DNA of 37,914 nucleotides from Lachnospiraceae bacterium (GTDB lineage: Bacteria; Bacillota; Clostridia; Lachnospirales; Lachnospiraceae), in NCBI GenBank assembly GCA_017548765.1, contig JAFYZH010000058.1, forward strand, positions 1-37,914. Direction: 5' to 3'. Positions 3,280 through 15,220 of this stretch are shown here, piece after piece (within the stretch, counting starts at the first letter, position 1; each line of letters opens with the position of its first letter). Below the pieces are notes generated by a model that was not told where the DNA came from, ran no database searches, and saw only the letters and a list, made by a program, of their open reading frames with translations. The translations under genes and the position numbers were made by a program.

Positions 3280-5277
3280 TCAATGATCCATAATTTTAAC
3301 ATCATCCCCAACACCGATCAACGAAACTCCTTCATCCACATAAATTGACCCTTTCGAAAGGGTTCCGCTCAAGTTCAACTCCTGAAAGAGGTTATTGCTG
3401 CAACTCAAATAATTCAAAGCCGGAGTTTCGCTCAGATCCAATTCAGACAGTCGGTTACCGCCACAGCCTAGCCAGCTAAGGGATACGCATCCGCTCACAT
3501 TGAGGCTCTCTAACTGATTATTGTTGCAAAAGAGTTCTTTCAACTTTGGACACATAGCTACATTCAACGTTTCTAAACTATTGTTATTGCAATCAACATT
3601 CCGCAACACGGGTTTATTACTTAGGGCCAGCTCCTTTATCTCGTTATCTTCACAATTCAAAATTTCCAGGTCGTGGCATTGACCGATATCCAGTTTCTTC
3701 AGTTTATTTTCAAAACACATAACTTCTTTCAAAGCGGTACACCCGCTCAGATTCAGTTCTTTCATGTCATTACGGGCACAGGAAACAATCTCCAAAAGTT
3801 CATTTCCACTCAAATCTAAACTCTCGATCGAATTACCATTGCACCATAGTTCCTTTAACTTCGGGTTACCACTCACATCCAGATTGCTTAGGATGTGACC
3901 ACAATAAGCACAATCCAAATATTCCAACTCCGGAACCTGACTTAGATCCGGACTGCTTCGTAGGTATTCACTTTGATGAAAGCCCAAATGTTTTAGCCTC
4001 GGAACCTGACTTAGATCCAGACTCCTTAAATAATTCCCCCCGCAGTTCAAAGCCACTAACGCCGGATTATGACTTAGATCCAGTTCTTTCTGGCGCAATC
4101 CTTCACAGTTCAATTCCTCCAAAGCGGGACATGAACTCAGATCCAATTCTTTCAGTTTGTTCGCTCCACATTTGAGGGTAGTCAACATCGGCGTATAACT
4201 CAGGTCCAATTCTTCCAGTTCGTTAGATCCGCATATGAGGGTAGTCAACATCGGCGTATAACTCAGGTCCAATTCTTTCAGTTTGTTAGATTCGCACATG
4301 AGGGTAGTCAACTTTGGATTATGGCTCAGATTCAAATGGTCTATGTCAGTACCGGCTATATCCAGATATTCCAAATTCGGAAACATACCCGGATCCGGAG
4401 GACCCTCGGAACTCCACCCTATGCTCAGCTCTTTCAAAACATCACTGGGGTTTATATTCAGAGACGTATAAACGCCGCAGTAAATGCTCTCCAACTTAGG
4501 ATTTGATCTCACATCCAGGTTTTTCACAGAATACTCGCTTTTGATATACACTAAGTTCGGGCAGCTGCTTAAGTCCACTTCTTTAAACGATTGGTAAGAC
4601 AGATCCAAACGTTCCAAAGAGGTGCAACCATCCAAATCCAGTTCCCTCAATTCACCCTTCTTTGGATAAGGCCCCCCGAGAAAAATCTGTTTCCCTCCGC
4701 AGACATCCAAATACTTCAGCTTCTTTTTTCCGTGCACATCCAGACTCATCAGAGGATTAAACGAGCAGTCTAAGTATCCCAATTTCGGGCAGCCGCTCAG
4801 ATCCAAATTGATCAGGCTGTTGCAAGAGCAGTCGAGCTCGATCAACTCCTTACATCCGGTTACATCCAACATGACCAGCGGTCCGTACTCTTGCCAGTCA
4901 AGGGTTTGTATCGAAATGACCGCTCCTTTTACATGCAGATGCTTCAGGCGGGTATTCTTGCTGACATTCAACTTACGAATCGGATTGAGCGAGCAGTCCA
5001 GCTTCTCGAGATTTGGGAAATACTCGATCCCCTGTAAGCTTTGTATCTCCTTTTGGCTTACCAGGCAATCCTTTACCGCCCGCCGTTCGTCCGGGGTGAG
5101 TATCCCGTCGCGGTCTGTATCATAATTTTCCGAAACATAGGTCCGAAAGACTGCATCCGGAAAATTCTGTTCATCTATGGTGATGGAACGCTCCGGCTTT
5201 CCTACGATCCACACGATCACGCCTGCCAGCGTCAAGACCGCGATCACACACAGGGGCCACATCATCCTTTTCATCAT
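3280..5277 (-). CDS. Long LRR protein of the duplicated cassette (copy 1)
   Basis: A 665-residue protein with an N-terminal membrane helix or uncleaved signal (about 7-26), then the motif ITIDEQNFPDAVFR and an EF-hand loop DTDRDGILTPDE at residues 53-64. The rest is a long run of 21-residue cysteine-ladder leucine-rich repeats (LxxLDLSxxPxLxxLxCxxN) ending in a short cap with the sequence VDEGVSL. There is no sorting motif or C-terminal membrane segment, so anchoring is by the N-terminus. Its paralogue at 6051-7796 has the EF-hand at exactly the same residues (53-64) and nearly the same start, showing duplication. Three consecutive repeats near 4174-4312 are almost identical in DNA, indicating recent expansion. 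The ATG at 5277 follows AGGAGG. The ligand and role are unknown; cell-surface binding is inferred from the family. Confidence 0.83.
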   Translation of the reverse strand: MMKRMMWPLCVIAVLTLAGVIVWIVGKPERSITIDEQNFPDAVFRTYVSENYDTDRDGILTPDERRAVKDCLVSQKEIQSLQGIEYFPNLEKLDCSLNPIRKLNVSKNTRLKHLHVKGAVISIQTLDWQEYGPLVMLDVTGCKELIELDCSCNSLINLDLSGCPKLGYLDCSFNPLMSLDVHGKKKLKYLDVCGGKQIFLGGPYPKKGELRELDLDGCTSLERLDLSYQSFKEVDLSSCPNLVYIKSEYSVKNLDVRSNPKLESIYCGVYTSLNINPSDVLKELSIGWSSEGPPDPGMFPNLEYLDIAGTDIDHLNLSHNPKLTTLMCESNKLKELDLSYTPMLTTLICGSNELEELDLSYTPMLTTLKCGANKLKELDLSSCPALEELNCEGLRQKELDLSHNPALVALNCGGNYLRSLDLSQVPRLKHLGFHQSEYLRSSPDLSQVPELEYLDCAYCGHILSNLDVSGNPKLKELWCNGNSIESLDLSGNELLEIVSCARNDMKELNLSGCTALKEVMCFENKLKKLDIGQCHDLEILNCEDNEIKELALSNKPVLRNVDCNNNSLETLNVAMCPKLKELFCNNNQLESLNVSGCVSLSWLGCGGNRLSELDLSETPALNYLSCSNNLFQELNLSGTLSKGSIYVDEGVSLIGVGDDVKIMDH
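4174..4312 (-). repeat. 63-bp near-identical LRR units inside the long LRR gene
   Basis: GAGGGTAGTCAAC recurs at 4174-4186, 4237-4249 and 4300-4312, exactly 63 bp (21 codons) apart, with nearly the same bases between. It marks three recently duplicated leucine-rich repeats. Confidence 0.88.
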
Positions 5278-6050: not shown

Positions 6051-7796
6051 TTAATAACGCCAAATATCAACATCCTCCCCGAGCCCGGTCAGTGAAACAT
6101 CCTCATCCACATAGAGTTCATTCACAGGGATCCCTGTCAGATCCAGTCTCCCTAGCCGGTTTCGGCGGCAATCGATATATTTCAAATTTGAACACTTGTC
6201 TACATCCAACGTATTAAGAGAACAGTCCGTACATCTCAGGTAGAGCATCGCGGTATTATGACTCACGTCCAGATCATATAACACATTTTCACTGCAATAC
6301 AGTTCTTCCAGGCTTATGCACTGGCTGATATCCAGTTCCTTCAGCCAATTCTTCGAACACCGAAGCACTTTTAAAGCCGTCTTCCCGCTCAGATCCAGTT
6401 CCGACACCCGGTTGTATGAACAGGAAAGCACCTCCAGCAGATCATTGTTGCTGATATCCAGCTCCCCGATCTCGTTATCATCACATAATAATTCCGTTAG
6501 TATCGGGTTTTGGCTCACATCCAGGTCTTTCAGCCTATCATGTAAGCAGCATAAGTATTTTAACCCCGAAGCCCGGCTTACATCCAGACTCCGGATGTTG
6601 TTTTCCGAACACGCTAAAGTCACCAGTGCAGGATTATGGCTCAGATCCAGTTTTTTCAATTTCAAATACTCACACCGCAATTCTTCCAGATCGGGGCATG
6701 TACTCAGATCCAATTCCTCCAACTCGTTACTATCGCAGTTCAGGACGGTCAGCTTCGGATTTTGGCTCAGGTCTAATTCTGTCAGATAGTTAGACTGGCA
6801 TCTGAGGATCCTTAGTTCCGGGTTGTGGCTCACATCCAGGTGATCTATATTTGTGCAAGCTACATCCAGTACCTCCAGGTTCGGAAACATGCCCGGATCC
6901 GGTTCATACGAATCACAATATTGCAGATCCAGTTCTTTCAAAACAGTACTGCTTTTTATGGTCAGAGTTTCTAAGCTCATGTAGTACCATCCGCCACAGA
7001 TGAGGCTCTCCAACTTCTCATTTGAACTCACATCCACGTTCTCCAGGGAAAACTTGCATCTCAGGCTCACCAGGTTCGGTAATCCGCTTACATCCAGTTC
7101 CTTTAACGGTTGGTAAGACAGATCCAAATGTTCCAAAGCGGTACATCCATCCAGCTTCAACTCTCTCAGTTCCCCCTGTTCCGGAACAACCACGGCGGCC
7201 GACATGGTTTTGCCTCCACAGACATCGACGGTCTTCAGTTTCTTCATTCCGCTCACATCCAGACTCATCATGGGATTAAACGAGCAGTCTAAGTATCCCA
7301 GATCCGGGCAACCGCTCAGATCCAGACCGACCAGACTGTTACATGCACAGTCGAGTTCGAGCAGCGCTTCACATCCACTCACATCCAGCATGATCAGCGT
7401 GCCGTTTTCGTACTTGATATAATCATCTTTCGTTACTTCTCCGCCTCTCACGTTCAGGCTCGTCAGGCGGGTATTCTTGCTGACATTCAACCTGCGGAGC
7501 GGATTGAGCGAACAGTCCAGTTTCTCGAGATTCGGAAAATGCTCGATGCCCTGTAAACTTTGTATCTCTTTCCGGCTCACCAGGCACTCTTTTACTGCCC
7601 GTCGTTCGCCCGGTGTGAGGCTCCCGTCATGGTCTGTATCGTAGTTTTCCGAAACATAGGCCCGAAAGACCGCGTCCGGAAAATTCTGTTCATCTATGGT
7701 AATGGCGCGCCCCGCCTTGCTTACGACCCACACGATCCCGGCCGTTAAAACCAAAGCCGCGATCACGCCCAGGGCTCCGATCATCCTTTTCTTCAC
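6051..7796 (-). CDS. Long LRR protein of the duplicated cassette (copy 2)
   Basis: With the GTG start at 7796 the product has 581 residues. I prefer this start because AGGAGG lies six bases upstream and the resulting N-terminus aligns with the paralogue at 3280-5277; an ATG eight codons earlier sits ahead of that site. Layout: membrane helix (about 7-26), ITIDEQNFPDAVFR, EF-hand loop DTDHDGSLTPGE (53-64), then cysteine-ladder leucine-rich repeats to a VDEDVSL cap. It is about 84 residues shorter than its paralogue, a difference of roughly four repeat units. It is the second gene of the operon, 24 bases after the short LRR gene. Probably displayed outside the membrane with calcium stabilising the EF-hand; ligand unknown. 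Confidence 0.82.
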   Translation of the reverse strand: MKKRMIGALGVIAALVLTAGIVWVVSKAGRAITIDEQNFPDAVFRAYVSENYDTDHDGSLTPGERRAVKECLVSRKEIQSLQGIEHFPNLEKLDCSLNPLRRLNVSKNTRLTSLNVRGGEVTKDDYIKYENGTLIMLDVSGCEALLELDCACNSLVGLDLSGCPDLGYLDCSFNPMMSLDVSGMKKLKTVDVCGGKTMSAAVVVPEQGELRELKLDGCTALEHLDLSYQPLKELDVSGLPNLVSLRCKFSLENVDVSSNEKLESLICGGWYYMSLETLTIKSSTVLKELDLQYCDSYEPDPGMFPNLEVLDVACTNIDHLDVSHNPELRILRCQSNYLTELDLSQNPKLTVLNCDSNELEELDLSTCPDLEELRCEYLKLKKLDLSHNPALVTLACSENNIRSLDVSRASGLKYLCCLHDRLKDLDVSQNPILTELLCDDNEIGELDISNNDLLEVLSCSYNRVSELDLSGKTALKVLRCSKNWLKELDISQCISLEELYCSENVLYDLDVSHNTAMLYLRCTDCSLNTLDVDKCSNLKYIDCRRNRLGRLDLTGIPVNELYVDEDVSLTGLGEDVDIWRY

Positions 7797-10300: not shown

Positions 10301-10963
10301 TTATTTCACTATGTATCTGCCATCCAGGCCGACCACGGTGATCGTGCTGCCGACCGGGTAGGTCAGCTCCGTCACCGACGCGGGCGCGTTCAGCAGGATG
10401 CATGTCTCTCTTCCGTTGATATCGGCGAGGACTTTCACCTGTGTCTTCAGGATCGAGTGGACCGTATGCGTCTCGCCGGACGTAAATGTAAAAGGTTTAT
10501 GGCCGTAGCCCAAAACGATCGCCGGGTACTCGCGTCCTTGTGCCAGGATCTTATCATAACCACCGCTTTTGCTCGAGGACATAATTGCTGTGCCAAAACC
10601 GACGATACCGAAGATGGCCATTCCGAACGGAACGATCGCGAAGATGGGGCCTGCTCCAAACGTGAGCGCCGAAACACCTATGCCGATGGTGACGACGCAC
10701 CACAGAACCAAAAACGCACCACCCATGACCTGACCTGCAGCCGCCCCGGGCTGCGGAGGCTCGACCTCCGAGATGATATCCACCTTACGATCATCCCTTT
10801 GCGTATTCGGCGCTACCGGCACATCATCGACTTCCTCGATGATCCGCTTCGTCTGTATCATAGAGCAGCCGCAGTAGTGGCAGGCCGCTTCCTGACCCAC
10901 ACGGGGTGCTCCGCAACTCGGACATTTTTCCAACAATACTTCCACGGTTGTTTGTTTCTTCAT
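10301..10963 (-). CDS. Zinc-ribbon membrane protein, partner of the Fic gene
   Basis: A 220-residue protein of unknown function. Near the N-terminus it has a zinc ribbon with cysteines 14, 17, 28 and 31 (CPSC and CHYC knuckles). Two membrane helices follow at roughly residues 75-125, and then a soluble domain of about 80 residues rich in beta strands, with no further recognisable motif. The zinc ribbon is probably cytoplasmic. Its start codon is six bases after the Fic stop codon, and its ribosome binding site AAGGAG lies inside the last codons of Fic, so the two are almost certainly cotranscribed and translationally linked. It could be a substrate, a membrane tether or a modulator of Fic; none of these can be shown from sequence. 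Confidence 0.75.
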   Translation of the reverse strand: MKKQTTVEVLLEKCPSCGAPRVGQEAACHYCGCSMIQTKRIIEEVDDVPVAPNTQRDDRKVDIISEVEPPQPGAAAGQVMGGAFLVLWCVVTIGIGVSALTFGAGPIFAIVPFGMAIFGIVGFGTAIMSSSKSGGYDKILAQGREYPAIVLGYGHKPFTFTSGETHTVHSILKTQVKVLADINGRETCILLNAPASVTELTYPVGSTITVVGLDGRYIVK

Positions 10964-10969
10964 TTTTCT

Positions 10970-12028
10970 TTACTCCTTATCCCAATTCCATGTATAGAAG
11001 GTATAACGGCCTCCTCCGTTTTTAACGATCTCGCCTTTATCGAGCAATTCTTTTAATGTACGTTCTACCGTCTTCTGACTGATATCCGGGCACTGATCCA
11101 TGATCTGCGCTCTTGTGATTTTTCCGATGGTAGTACGAATGATTTCTCGTACACGCTCCGATTTTGAAAGACCTTTCGTTATCAAAATATCCACTCGTGA
11201 GATGAATTCCCGATATGCCGCGATCACCATGCCCAGCATATAACGAACGAACGGAAGGTAATCATTATCCCCTTCATGCCATCCGGTCGAACTATCCTGA
11301 AGGATCTCATAGTAGGTATCCTTCGTGTCGGCGATCAACTTCTCAATGCTGACATACTTGCCGACAACATATCCCGCCCGATAGAGAAGCAACAGTGTAA
11401 GAAGACGACTCATACGTCCATTCCCATCACTAAAAGGGTGAATGCAAAGGAAATCAAGGATGAACATCGGAATTATAAGTAAAGGATCCAATTCCGGGTT
11501 CGTTAGTGCTTCCTGAAATGCATTACACAAAGTTTCCATCGCATCTGGTGTTTCCCATGCAGGAACCGGTTGAAAACGAACTCTTCTCGTTCCGTCGGGC
11601 AGTTCCTCAGCGATCACATTATCAGATTCCTTGAAAGTTCCACCCGTGGACGAATTACTGAATTTAAAGAGATCACGATGTAGTTGTAAGATCATCCCAG
11701 GGCGAATTGGAATATAATCATAGTTTTCATGGATTGTATTCAAAACATCTCGATATCCTGCGATCTCACGTTCGCTTCGGTTTTGAGGTGTTGTTTTATC
11801 CAACACGATCTTCTTCAAGCGATCATCTGTAGTTATGATTCCCTCTATTCGGTTCGATGCTTCCGTGCTTTGAATCCTGGCGATCTCAAGCAGTTCAGAA
11901 AGAGCGTCTTTATGTGCCTCGATAAGGAGATTCTGCTGTCCCTTCATTTCGTGGATCTGAGCCAAGTAGGAAACGATCTCCGGTGAAAGCAGTTTTTTGT
12001 ACTCTGTACAATAGTTAAATGTCCTCAT
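10970..12028 (-). CDS. Fic family protein (AMP transferase type) with C-terminal winged helix
   Basis: The 352-residue product has the complete Fic active site HPFSDGNGRMSR at residues 197-208, with the catalytic histidine at 197. Fic enzymes usually attach AMP from ATP to a hydroxyl side chain of a target protein. The N-terminal part holds SNRIEG (58-63), matching the (S/T)xxxE(G/N) inhibitory motif that blocks the nucleotide site in class II Fic proteins, so activity is probably self-restrained. Residues 287-347 look like a winged-helix DNA-binding domain (ITRAQIMDQC then KTVERTLKELLDKGEI, and a GGGRYTFY wing). ATG at 12028 follows GAGGAGA. The protein probably binds its own promoter, where four copies of a 12-bp site flank the core elements. 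Target protein unknown. Confidence 0.9.
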   Translation of the reverse strand: MRTFNYCTEYKKLLSPEIVSYLAQIHEMKGQQNLLIEAHKDALSELLEIARIQSTEASNRIEGIITTDDRLKKIVLDKTTPQNRSEREIAGYRDVLNTIHENYDYIPIRPGMILQLHRDLFKFSNSSTGGTFKESDNVIAEELPDGTRRVRFQPVPAWETPDAMETLCNAFQEALTNPELDPLLIIPMFILDFLCIHPFSDGNGRMSRLLTLLLLYRAGYVVGKYVSIEKLIADTKDTYYEILQDSSTGWHEGDNDYLPFVRYMLGMVIAAYREFISRVDILITKGLSKSERVREIIRTTIGKITRAQIMDQCPDISQKTVERTLKELLDKGEIVKNGGGRYTFYTWNWDKE

Positions 12029-12051
12029 TTAATCTCCTCATTTCAGAGTTT

Positions 12052-12063
12052 AATATAGTCATT
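12052..12063. promoter_or_regulatory. Fic operator copy 1 (AATATAGTCATT)
   Basis: A 12-bp copy of the AATATAGYCATT sequence located between the likely fic transcription start and its start codon. Its place downstream of the promoter, with three further copies upstream of the -35 box, fits repression of fic by a DNA-binding protein, most simply Fic itself. Confidence 0.6.
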
Positions 12064-12086
12064 TCGATGATGTATGTCGTAGTTAA

Positions 12087-12115
12087 ATCTTAACAGAAAG
12101 ACCGACACATGTCAA
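12087..12115 (-). promoter_or_regulatory. Promoter of the fic gene
   Basis: A perfect -35 box TTGACA (12110-12115) and a -10 box TAAGAT (12087-12092) are 17 bases apart on the minus strand. Transcription would start near 12080, about 50 bases before the Fic ATG. Confidence 0.75.
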
Positions 12116-12118
12116 TCC

Positions 12119-12172
12119 AATATAGCCATTCTTGCTTAAAATGACTATATTGAAACCTGAAATGGCTATATT
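12119..12172. promoter_or_regulatory. Three phased operator copies upstream of the fic promoter
   Basis: Copies of the 12-bp sequence AATATAGYCATT lie at 12119-12130 (one orientation), 12140-12151 and 12161-12172 (the opposite orientation). Start-to-start spacing is exactly 21 bp each time, two turns of the DNA helix, so bound proteins would line up on one face. The first ends three bases from the -35 box of fic. Confidence 0.65.
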
Positions 12173-12193
12173 GGGGAAAGCAGAAATCTGTTT

Positions 12194-12552
12194 TTACGCG
12201 CATATTTGCGAAACACTTCGTTTTGCGCGTAATGTTCCTGCCCAGATCACCCTATTCTTACGCGTAAATTTACGAAAAGCTTCCTTTTGCGCGTAATGAT
12301 CCCACTTCGGGACCTCTATCCTTACGCGCATATTTACGAAAAGCTTCCATTTGCGCGTAGCATTCCCGCCCGGATCACCCTATTCTTAAGCGCATTTTCA
12401 TGAAAAACTTCGTTTTGCGCGTAACGTTCCGCCGCCGGGACCTCTCTTCTTACGCGCAGTTTCAAGAAAAACTTCATTTTGCGCGTAACGCTCTAGCCTG
12501 GATCACTCTATCCCTACGCGCATTTTCGTGAAAAGCTTCCTTTTGCGCGTAA
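12194..12552. repeat. Six-unit tandem hairpin array with an exact 64-bp period
   Basis: Six 39-base inverted-repeat units begin at 12194, 12258, 12322, 12386, 12450 and 12514, exactly 64 bp apart. Each runs from TTACGCGCA to TGCGCGTAA, with a conserved centre of the form GAAAAGCTTC. The 25-base linkers fall into two alternating types: GGATCACCCTATTC-like (linkers 1, 3, 5) and GGGACCTCTATCC-like (2, 4), so the true period is 128 bp. Several arm changes are not compensated within a unit. I do not recognise the family. It could be a protein-binding array, a REP-like element expanded in tandem, or structured RNA. Confidence 0.9.
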
Positions 12553-12645
12553 CGCTCCCGATGGCCCCCTCTTGTTTTTTCATCCAAAATAGTGCTAAAT
12601 GCTAAAATTTTCATAAATCATTGTGTTTAGTGTGCAAATCGACAG

Positions 12646-12718: not shown

Positions 12719-15220
12719 ATGAAACAGAGAAAAAAACTCCGAATATTCTTATCTGCACTCCTCTCCCTGACCCTGATCTCCGGGACGCTTGCCTTACCGA
12801 CGGCGGTCGCGGAAGCGAAGGAAATGGAGGAATGTTATCACTGTGGCAAGACCGGTGAATTTCACTGCGACGGCTGTAACAACACTGGCACCGTGGTCTG
12901 CGATGGCTGCGGAGGCAGCGGCCACTGGGTATGCCCCGGACAGGATGATAAAGGTCCTTGCAACAACGGTTGGTACACCTGTCCGAGCTGCGGCGGTGAC
13001 GGATTAGGCCGGCCGATCCCTGCGGATGGCAATGCCGGCCCTTGCGGCAACTGCGGCGGTTCCGGAAAACTGGAATGCATCCGCTGTCATGGAACCGGCG
13101 GCGGCGACTGCGACCGCTGCCACGGCACGGGCCGCGCGGAATGCCAGCGTGGCGACTGCCAGTTAGCCCGCCAGTACGGTTACAAGTGCCCTTACTGTAA
13201 GGGTACCGGCTTCCTCGGTGTCGGCAGCTTCAAGCCGGAATGGAACGACGGCGTGCACAATGTGCCGGAAGTCGGCGACCACATCATCACGGATGCAGCG
13301 ACCTGGAGAGGCTATACCTATGGCGGCGATCCCGATCCTGAGCCGGTCTATCCGCTCGGCAGAGATCCGAAGACCGGACGTGATTATGTCTGGTTTATCG
13401 ATCTGGGCTCCGGAACCTGGGAAGTCGGCGGACGCACCATCACCGCTTTCCGTAACGGCGCTCCGGTATCTGGCGTTGTAGACCTGAAGTACAACGACCC
13501 GCTCCAGCTGAACGGTATCAACGACCTGCGCGACGCGCAGATTTTCCTGGTCACTTCCGACGGAACCAGGATCGAGCTCAAGCTTCTGAACGGCGACGGC
13601 GAGACCTCCGTTGCGACGAATGTCATGAATACCGACCAGATCCCGTTCAAAAACCTTTCCATCGTCATTGAATACACAGGCTCCGGCGACGAGCCCGGCC
13701 CGGATGAACCCGGTCCAGGGCCTGATGTTCCCGGTCCTGACGAGCCCGGCCCCGATGAGCCTGAGCCCGGCCCCGGCCCCGATGAGCCTGAGCCCGGTAC
13801 GGAAGAACCCGATCCTGAAGGATCCAAGCCCGCGTGGTATCCGCAGCTCCCCGGAAACCGGAATTCCGATTTCGATATCCCACTTCCCGATAACCTGACC
13901 GCAGTTCGTCCCGGCGGTCTCCGCGTGGAGATGGGGGCAATGAACGCCACCCAACAGAAATATTATGCAGGCCTTTCGGACGAGGAATTGTTGCGGATCC
14001 TGTATAACGTTCAGACGATCGTAACATCGGCCGAACCCGGCCGGTCCGATCCTGAACTCGATGCACTCCTCGAAGCATTGGCCAGAAGAAATGGCTTTGA
14101 GTCATTGCAAGACGGAAGACTCTACCCTCTGTATTTTGAGGGCCATCAGGAGGTCGGCTTCCCGGTACATGTATCGGTTCATCTCCGCAAGGGCGACCTG
14201 GACGGAGGCCACGAGATGTTCGTTTATCACGTTGCAGCCGACGGCCATCTCGAGTTTCTGGGCGGGGCGGAATACGGAACCTACGACGACGGCTCCATCG
14301 AGCAGATCTCGTTCTACACCGCTTCCTTCTCCTCCTTCTTCACAACGAAACAAGAGCTGAAACTTGACATCGAGGACAAGCCGGAAACGCGGGAGCCGGG
14401 CGAGGACCCGAACCCGATCGGCGGCGATCCCGACACTCCGAACCCTCCGATCTCCGGCGATCCGGGCAATGAACCTCAGGGCGGCAACGAGGCGAATCCT
14501 CCCGAGCCGACGAAACCGGCGGATATGTCCCTGGTTCCGAAGGACCGGAAATCCGATTTTGACATTCCGGTGGAAACGAATGGCGGCCAGCCTGCGAAGG
14601 CGACAGCTCGCGTTGAAGTCGGCAAAATGACGGAAAATGAGCAGCTTCTCCTGGAACGGATCCCGGAAAAGGATCTCGCACAGACATTGACCAATGTCCG
14701 CTCCATCGTGGAGAGCGCCGAGCCCGGCAAAACGGCGCCCGAGACCGAGCAGGTCCTGCAGGCCGTAGCCGAGGAAAATGGTTTCAAGAACATCGAAGAA
14801 GGCAAGATCTACCCTCTGTATTTCGAGGGGCATCAGGAGATTGGCTTCCCCGTACGCGTCACCGTCCAGATCGAGAAGGGCACGCTGAGCGGCGGCAAAG
14901 ATCTCTATGTATACCACATCAAGGATGACCTGAAAGTCGAGTCCCTCGGCAAGGCGGATGTAACGACGGCCGATGATGGTTCGATCGAGAGCATCTCCTT
15001 CTACACCAATTCGTTCTCCTCCTTCTTTACGGCGGAGCAGGAACTGAAGACCGATGTGAAACTCGACATCACAACTCCGGGCACGGACCTCAAGGGTGAA
15101 CCGGAGCCGGACGACTACAGGCCCATCCTCCCGATCCTGATCGGAGTTTGCGTTGGCGTGATCGTCTTAGTGATCGTGGTCATCGCGGTTCGGTCGAAGA
15201 AAAAACGCAAGGCCGACTGA
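12719..15220 (+). CDS. Secreted membrane-anchored protein with eight CxxCxGxG motifs and a duplicated domain
   Basis: An 833-residue protein with a signal peptide (cleavage likely after AEA at 31-33). Residues 39-165 carry eight CxxCxGxG-type motifs (for example CYHCGKTG, CDGCGGSG, CIRCHGTG, CPYCKGTG), the zinc-binding pattern of DnaJ, which normally has four. A domain without a recognised family follows (about 170-320), then a Gly/Pro/Asp/Glu linker (about 322-372). Two related domains follow at about 383-543 and 611-774; both start with SDFDIP and contain YPLYFEGHQE(V/I)GFPV and SFSSFFT. A membrane helix (about 801-823) and a lysine-rich tail end the protein, so it is anchored outside the cell with the Cys-rich part distal. 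Function unknown. It is the only plus-strand gene in the window. Confidence 0.85.
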   Translation: MKQRKKLRIFLSALLSLTLISGTLALPTAVAEAKEMEECYHCGKTGEFHCDGCNNTGTVVCDGCGGSGHWVCPGQDDKGPCNNGWYTCPSCGGDGLGRPIPADGNAGPCGNCGGSGKLECIRCHGTGGGDCDRCHGTGRAECQRGDCQLARQYGYKCPYCKGTGFLGVGSFKPEWNDGVHNVPEVGDHIITDAATWRGYTYGGDPDPEPVYPLGRDPKTGRDYVWFIDLGSGTWEVGGRTITAFRNGAPVSGVVDLKYNDPLQLNGINDLRDAQIFLVTSDGTRIELKLLNGDGETSVATNVMNTDQIPFKNLSIVIEYTGSGDEPGPDEPGPGPDVPGPDEPGPDEPEPGPGPDEPEPGTEEPDPEGSKPAWYPQLPGNRNSDFDIPLPDNLTAVRPGGLRVEMGAMNATQQKYYAGLSDEELLRILYNVQTIVTSAEPGRSDPELDALLEALARRNGFESLQDGRLYPLYFEGHQEVGFPVHVSVHLRKGDLDGGHEMFVYHVAADGHLEFLGGAEYGTYDDGSIEQISFYTASFSSFFTTKQELKLDIEDKPETREPGEDPNPIGGDPDTPNPPISGDPGNEPQGGNEANPPEPTKPADMSLVPKDRKSDFDIPVETNGGQPAKATARVEVGKMTENEQLLLERIPEKDLAQTLTNVRSIVESAEPGKTAPETEQVLQAVAEENGFKNIEEGKIYPLYFEGHQEIGFPVRVTVQIEKGTLSGGKDLYVYHIKDDLKVESLGKADVTTADDGSIESISFYTNSFSSFFTAEQELKTDVKLDITTPGTDLKGEPEPDDYRPILPILIGVCVGVIVLVIVVIAVRSKKKRKAD

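Follow-up and report, generated by a model that had tools for sequence, protein, structure and literature searches.

The described system that comes closest to the one reported here is the REPtron, in which REP or REPIN repeats are combined with a RAYT transposase; in REPtrons, RAYT genes are flanked by REPs, single-stranded REP is cleaved at GTAG, and enzyme and repeat co-evolve (PMC3733652, PMC8266576). Clusters of REPs, known as BIMEs, are likewise inverted-repeat clusters located between genes. The arrays described below resemble REPtrons in that the repeats are short, palindromic and intergenic, and occur as several families per genome, every family apparently having a linked enzyme gene as its partner; repeat and enzyme appear to diverge together. 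They differ in that the enzyme is PD-(D/E)XK-like while that of REPtrons is HUH/Y1, in that the units are mostly tandem at helical-turn steps, and in that the one-sided changes in their arms point to double-stranded DNA and not to a folded single strand; from BIME clusters they are distinguished by the linked enzyme and the rigid period. With regard to spacing, the ComK boxes are phased operator pairs, in which alternative spacer lengths differ by whole helical turns. The alternatives in site spacing here likewise differ by whole turns, although ComK boxes are two promoter sites, whereas the present arrays reach up to 19 units at one place and are dispersed through the genome. Unlike in a CRISPR array, the interiors drift and the spacers are related within an array instead of being unique, and no cas name was found among 12 flanking proteins scanned by Pfam. 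In the open-licence PMC literature, preprints not included, no description of nuclease-linked phased palindrome arrays was found, and what follows looks like a previously undescribed repeat-plus-enzyme system, best read as a functional counterpart of REP/RAYT that employs another enzyme.

The window, by which we mean the whole stretch of DNA analysed, comprises 37,914 nucleotides of a Lachnospiraceae genome (contig JAFYZH010000058.1). Its array, at 12194-12552, consists of six 39-bp units of the form TTACGCGCA-21-TGCGCGTAA, i.e., two arms enclosing an interior that is 21 bp in every unit. Unit 1 (12194..12232) carries TTACGCGCA, the 21-bp interior and TGCGCGTAA; it is followed by unit 2 (12258..12296, left arm TTACGCGTA), unit 3 (12322..12360, right arm ending in TAG), unit 4 (12386..12424, left arm TTAAGCGCA), unit 5 (12450..12488) and unit 6 (12514..12552, left arm CTACGCGCA), all steps between unit starts being 64 bp, and none of these features carries a strand assignment. 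The first 25-bp spacer (12233..12257) keeps its length while its sequence drifts; the others, also 25 bp, lie at 12297..12321, 12361..12385, 12425..12449 and 12489..12513, and a unit, not a spacer, closes the array. TRF independently reported the array at 12194-12560 with a period of 64 and at 12194-12559 with a period of 128, the latter because alternate spacers are more alike. Both the unit starts and TRF agree with the first-pass annotation, which had described six 39-base inverted repeats exactly 64 bp apart in a gene-free gap, and indeed no ORF of at least 60 aa is listed inside the array. The array had no Rfam match, and a tRNA or tmRNA identity was rejected.

The array lies between two divergent genes, namely a fic gene (10970..12028, minus strand) and a gene for an 833-aa Cys-rich, probably secreted protein (12719..15220, plus strand), which adjoins the array in two congeners (G003 and G005) as well. 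The 833-aa protein has a signal-like N-terminal stretch, many CxxC-type motifs, linkers rich in Pro, Gly, Asp and Glu, and a C-terminal hydrophobic anchor, with no Pfam match. Just upstream of fic, at 12039-12174, are several AATATAGYCATT-like inverted repeats, perhaps the operator region of fic itself. Beyond fic lies a 220-aa ORF (10301..10963, minus strand), which borders the array on that side in G003, G005 and G004. Elsewhere in the window, a direct repeat of 63 bp in 2.8 copies was found at 4134-4312; it may be coding for leucine-rich repeats, an LRR protein being located a few kb away.

Copies of the unit were sought in the window's own genome (G000) and in five congeners (G001-G005). 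Using an 18-base pattern with 21 free bases and at most 3 mismatches, G000 gave 60 matches and the reversed-pattern control none, and on this comparison a chance origin of the units was rejected. The units occupy at least 12 contigs and at least 11 intergenic arrays, nearly all in 64-bp steps; of 48 steps, 44 measure exactly 64 bp and the remaining four 63, 65, 58 and 73 bp, the last two of which involve doubtful end units. On the question of whether copies are single or tandem, about 57 of the 60 units in G000 are tandem, while single units were seen in G004 and, in two instances, in RM5, a genome of another genus. With at most 2 mismatches, 57, 31, 46, 54, 4 and 76 units were counted in G000 through G005, respectively, and among 145 genomes searched at this threshold four outside the genus had a match, with one or two each. 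The strict form of the pattern was found in 4 of 397 genomes of the family, three of them belonging to the genus and one with a lone match. In genome_contigs, the exact pattern was present in 32 stretches, mostly of four Lachnospiraceae MAGs of the genus (from rumen, where stated), with more arrays in RM5, RUG12614 and RUG13328, all of other genera, and four lone matches in other phyla that look like chance. Two G000 contigs, C73 and C80, apparently end in one array, because they have units in common as reverse complements. Contig ends inside or right beside arrays were also noted for G005 (C74, C83 and C51) and G001 (C57); since contigs end in this manner, short-read genomes probably under-count the arrays. 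The arms are common to all arrays, whereas interiors and spacers are specific to each locus. The GAAAAGCTTC-like center that had been pointed out in the first-pass annotation is a feature of the window array and its G003 orthologue, but many other arrays have different centers.

Comparison of flanks revealed that the arrays occupy orthologous loci across the genus. At the window locus, G003 keeps the order of secreted protein, array, 220-aa ORF and MATE transporter, as does G005, where it is spread over two contigs, each broken off at the array; the stretch from G004 contains the array, the ORF and the MATE side. The fic gene was found in none of these three orthologous stretches, and is therefore not part of the system; as to whether the position next to fic is conserved, which the first-pass annotation had asked, the place of the array is conserved but fic is not there. 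The number of units at this locus varies, with 6 in G000, 11 in G003, 3+4 in G005 and 1 in G004. A purely local expansion, which would have been the conclusion had no relative carried the array, is contradicted by the roughly 60 units in G000 and by the five congeners with arrays at syntenic loci. Because array positions are syntenic among congeners, mobility must be old or rare. The only lineage-specific array that was traced, the G000-specific one on C7, offered no clean empty site: its flanks are recognizable in G002, and partly in G004, and the intergenic part has diverged.

Palindromic, intergenic, dispersed repeats with a linked gene raise the question of an ordinary REP/REPIN family spread by a RAYT (Y1, HUH) transposase. 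A RAYT in the same genome was expected on that account; however, PF01797, the Y1/HUH transposase family, had no match in G000, G001 or G004, and the units are mostly in phased tandem arrays. Furthermore, PF01797 had one match each in G002, G003 and G005, and these genes have a different repeat on both sides. This separate REP-like repeat of about 35 nt, GTGACA...GAACCGTCCCC...TGTCAC, occurs at many places in the congeners among the matches listed; it adjoins the Y1_Tnp genes of G002, G003 and G005 on both sides (L078, L079, L080), and it also flanks the G000 C7 array (L032:5859-5901 and 6249-6286). Since the genus has its own REP-like repeat beside Y1 genes, two kinds of repeats coexist. The REP-like character that had been proposed is retained by analogy, but descent from an ordinary RAYT-driven family is scarcely credible.

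When ORFs near arrays were compared between genera, one neighbor was found to be close on both sides. This was a nuclease-like ORF, located 34 bp past the array on contig C99 of G000 and 201 bp past an array of RM5, the two proteins being 57% identical. The RM5 gene is located at L120:6192-6989. The G000 gene (G000:C99:11437-12240) encodes a protein of about 265 aa, and in five of the six genus members (G000, G001, G002, G003 and G005), as well as in RM5, one array lies just upstream of its orthologue. In G000 and G001, a RelA/SpoT-domain (YjbM-like) gene, at L042:5246-5932, directly precedes the array-nuclease pair. A point against this pairing is that in RUG12614 and RUG13328, which also carry TTACGCGCA arrays, no full-length nuclease match exceeds 34% identity; RUG12614 has a further nuclease fragment at a contig end. 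The protein had no Pfam or NCBIfam match over the curated cut-off and no PHROG family, and a sequence search of the PDB revealed no convincing relative (best E 0.11). Nonetheless, six residues in its C-terminal half (E162, E179, P192, D193, E208 and K225) are invariant in 19 homologues, and they form an E...PD...E...K active-site pattern, which we take to be a mark of the PD-(D/E)XK nuclease superfamily. Among the PADLOC profiles, PDC-S68 matched all 19 homologues (best 9e-33) and HEAT_CxxC_PD-DEXK matched 13 of the 19 (best 7.2e-7). In both cases, part of the profile matches the C-terminal half of the protein; it is to be noted that PDC-S68 models span about 1200 positions, whereas the present protein has about 265 aa and an N-terminal half of its own. 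Judged from these sequence features, it is PD-(D/E)XK-like and a putative nuclease.

The PADLOC matches bring up an anti-phage or anti-plasmid system, in which the nuclease would attack invaders while the arrays store, titrate or mark self. The resemblance of the nuclease domain to the C-terminal part of the defense candidate PDC-S68 would suit such a role, as would the 4-7 nuclease matches per genome in the array-bearing genus. However, the exact pattern had 0 matches in viral_contigs, where the two nucleases tried had no relative either, the interiors and spacers are related within arrays, and no partner genes came to notice; a defense function therefore appears to be quite improbable. A phage origin of the system was rejected on the same search of viral_contigs; three unannotated fecal 'Bacteriophage sp.' records do resemble the nuclease, one of them over 84% of the protein. 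A plasmid origin was rejected as well, the five plasmid records all matching the C-terminal part inside AAA family ATPases.

The nuclease has relatives, many of which are preceded by arrays with other arms. A protein search of 25 chosen genomes retrieved 57 places in 15 genomes, and those besides the orthologues and a remnant in G004 are homologues at 25-49% identity. Examples of other-arm arrays upstream of homologues are TTACGGCTG at 52 bp, TTACAACTG at 53, GGCTAACAA at 74, GCGAACAA at 74, GTACCTAA at 96 and TATGCCTAA at 85. In most of them, one can read an inverted pair that measures 34-41 bp from end to end, although the view in which unit and spacer are exchanged is also possible. We examined 56 of the 57 places, the remaining one overlapping L162; omission of L161, L162, L166, L174 and L191 (shorter than 200 aa, L166 also having only 6 bp upstream) left a discovery set of 51 loci, which include orthologues of one gene and are not independent. 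Upstream regions of 127 mechanical ORFs of at least 250 aa from G000 and RM5 stretches, which are not confirmed genes, served as controls, those overlapping TTACGCGCA arrays having been excluded beforehand. A tandem array was found upstream in 41 of 51 homologue loci, as opposed to 7 of 127 controls. In a second sample, a profile search of 118 genomes of the class, 15 genomes had a match, with 55 places; 5 of these were from the own genome, 23, namely all full-length ones outside the genus, formed the validation set, 9 were weak partial matches and 18 were left out. By the arm test, which demands three or more inverted units and allows a unit length of 34-41 bp, 38 of 51 discovery loci and 11 of 23 validation loci were positive, compared to 3 of 127 controls; the tandem test was positive in 9 of the 23 validation loci. 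The enzyme gene is thus abutted by repeats as in REPtrons, with a different enzyme. The three control matches (L121, L035 and L032) are dispersed phased palindrome arrays, with periods of 52, 75 and 61, that have the arms of homologues L185, L184 and L190, respectively. The linkage of arrays to the nuclease gene across paralogous families is, therefore, directly supported. It does not extend to every locus: 13 of the 51 discovery loci and 12 of the 23 validation loci lacked three inverted units, the 11 positive validation loci belong to two families while a third family had 0 of 3, and none of the 9 weak partial matches had three units.

Arms were then compared with enzymes in 34 of the 41 array-bearing loci, seven with unclear arms being left out; the arms, like the periods used below, were compiled by hand. 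The arms were alike in 22 of 23 nuclease pairs with at least 70% identity, in 11 of 74 pairs with 50-70% identity, and in 0 of 464 pairs below 50%. The Mantel correlation between nuclease and arms was r=0.71 (0/5000), much of which could be explained by joint descent of linked loci; when nucleases were collapsed at 55% identity, leaving 13 rows, r fell to 0.20 (299/5000). As the correlation is weak among representatives below 55% identity, an arm code is apparent only among close relatives. Arms of other families also recur in trans. In G000, GGCTAACAA-like units are found beside the nuclease on C3 and in trans on C7, C22, C38 and C47, and GCGAACAAA units beside the nuclease on C53 and also on C47 and C70. 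Units, phasing, arm conservation and this dispersal in trans are matters of direct observation, and that the dispersed arrays keep mainly arms and phase is, in our opinion, the strongest sign of a putative trans-acting reader. Arms of the L190 and L184 families are found in G000 arrays, too; the G000 paralog closest to L190 (on C11) is accompanied by different arms, and L184 does not group with any G000 paralog in the tree. Thus, arrays can exist without an obvious cognate.

The architecture of the units was examined in the fetched loci, comprising 259 units in 43 arrays, a number that includes a few false partial units and repeats on overlapping contig ends. The interior was exactly 21 bp in 241 of 259 units, and the step exactly 64 bp in 201 of 216. 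Between adjacent units, arms diverged by 4.9%, interiors by 18.8% and spacers by 29.9%. The ratio of period changes to substitutions inside arrays was 1:147 (14 changes in 215 adjacent pairs), whereas the ratio of gap openings to mismatches in aligned flanks, coding sequence included, was 1:33. The 39-bp unit is kept in the other genera, with steps of 63-64 and 74-75 in RM5, 52-53 and 63 in RUG12614, and 74 and 72 in RUG13328; some single arrays of these genomes mix step lengths, and the lengths are about 11 bp apart, which is one helical turn. For 35 periods, R was 0.879 at a fitted 10.85 bp, a value reached in 0 of 4000 simulations, and after collapse to 20 values it was 0.870 (again 0/4000). 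In the validation set, 14 steps gave R=0.934 at the preset 10.85 (0/20000), steps of 323, 104 and 76 having been left out and an alternation of 51 and 53 entered as 52. The spacing is restricted to whole helical turns, as it is in a helix-phased binding array, and the proposal that spacing itself is constrained is borne out by the scarcity of period changes and by the steps near helical turns elsewhere.

Within the units, AA/TT steps recur at 9.5-10 bp; the periodicity, determined on one unit per array for 43 arrays, peaks at 9.5 bp with a z of about 23 over shuffled interiors. Columns 9-12, 19-21 and 27-30 of the unit are A/T-rich. Weighted over the 43 arrays, AAA stands at columns 19-21 in about 24, TTT in 6.5 and ATT in 5.4, a pattern more in keeping with a bending tract than with a site read base by base. 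With their phased A/T tracts and helical spacing, features that suit a bending protein, the arrays might also be satellite-like DNA bound by a general nucleoid protein of the HU/IHF type, or by a partition-like protein, the nuclease gene adjoining them by chance or hitch-hiking. On the other hand, each family has arms of its own, which among close relatives go with the linked nuclease, and the arm-test linkage in both samples far exceeds that in controls (38/51 and 11/23 against 3/127); we consider this alternative improbable. A binding array indeed fared best of the three ideas initially offered, but the partner suggested by our results is a nuclease family and not a known partition or nucleoid protein; overall, the first-pass interpretation is partly supported.

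Each unit can fold as a hairpin, and the arrays might accordingly be transcribed and processed into small hairpin RNAs. Of 239 units, 101 have fully complementary arms, and in 8 units C-G replaces the T-A that is usual at the outer pair, both sides having changed. Nevertheless, at least one arm pair is mismatched in the other 138, and pairs 8-32, outer and 9-31 are rich in one-sided changes: pair 8-32 is C-A in 15 and T-G in 15 units and T-A in none, the outer pair is C-A in 71 and T-G in 28, besides the 8 with C-G, and pair 9-31 is A-C in 11, G-T in 3 and T-A in 1. Given these mismatches, either strand would carry many of them when folded. In addition, interiors have A-tracts facing A-tracts, and, as mentioned, Rfam gave no match. 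The arm-pair pattern thus speaks against a conserved single-strand or RNA stem; an RNA-level element appears very improbable, and the arrays probably have their role at the level of DNA. The original argument for such a role, namely that arm changes are uncompensated, stands insofar as the changes are mostly one-sided, but about half of these are still G-U compatible on one strand or the other.

The sixth member of the genus, G004, offers a natural experiment in that only a C-terminal piece of its nuclease gene is left (residues 219-267, 80% identical). An array unit runs straight into this remnant at about codon 219, and the start of the Sua5 gene comes thereafter, as in the congeners. G004 has 6 pattern matches at up to 3 mismatches, 4 of which are array units; these intact units number 1, 2 and 1 at three orthologous loci, where other genomes have 6, 11 and 3+4 at the first, 2-5 at the second, and 4-12 at the third. 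One of the three loci has units with shortened or lengthened interiors, and one further unit, with a 20-bp interior, is located at the nuclease locus. Deletion of the nuclease together with small arrays is, therefore, directly seen in one species, and it fits a loss of upkeep after nuclease loss; it is to be noted that this is a single case in an 88% complete assembly of about 260 contigs, and that G001:C48 also has only 2 units.

These findings bear on the main rival explanation, in which the arrays are regulatory operators. The linked protein, or another regulator, would then control the nuclease gene and the genes beside the arrays, the nuclease domain would be irrelevant to upkeep, and growth would occur by replication slippage. 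Helically phased operators are a known arrangement, 38 of the 41 tandem arrays stop 11-190 bp short of the start codon of the nuclease, and the window array itself sits between two divergent genes. Taking mechanical ORF lists as a guide, however, arrays of G000 lie between co-directional as well as between divergent ORFs, the 19 units at one place are much for an operator, and the small arrays beside the nuclease loss in G004 suggest a link to upkeep. We regard regulation as the sole function to be unlikely, though deserving of attention. Instead, a dedicated PD-(D/E)XK-like nuclease, whose gene lies elsewhere in G000, probably has about a dozen dispersed arrays as its double-stranded DNA targets, and the window array would be one of them.

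Under the target-array interpretation, binding, bending, cleavage, autoregulation and amplification are what we infer from the sequence comparisons. The protein of about 265 aa would bind the 9-bp arms, which hardly vary, as inverted pairs across the 21-bp interior, and a dimer or higher form would read two inverted arms about 30 bp apart over DNA bent by the interior A/T tracts that recur every 9.5-10 bp. Since units are a whole number of helical turns apart, the bound complexes are proposed to line up on one face of the DNA, where cooperative assembly would be possible. With an array directly in front of it, the nuclease gene would come under the control of its own protein. If arrays are cut or nicked, subsequent recombination or gene conversion may add or remove units, and this nuclease-driven turnover would preserve the uniformity of arms and phase and, on occasion, give rise to new arrays. 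A broader generalization, the chances of which we judge to be evenly balanced, is that throughout Clostridia each member of a fast-diversifying PD-(D/E)XK nuclease family reads its own 8-9 bp code in helix-phased double-stranded palindrome arrays and builds and maintains these in trans across the chromosome, the arrays decaying once the enzyme has disappeared.

The finding connects a conspicuous repeat with an unnamed family of nucleases. Because several homologues and arm codes are found in one genome, target specificity may be readable from sequence, and the co-evolution of enzyme and DNA, phase-dependent assembly, and the birth and death of dispersed repeats become directly testable. Compact nucleases with different apparent 8-9 bp specificities may also be of practical interest. 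If the broader generalization above holds, these arrays and their nucleases would represent a second, independently evolved solution to the job of REP/RAYT, or else a new chromosome-marking or selfish genome element.
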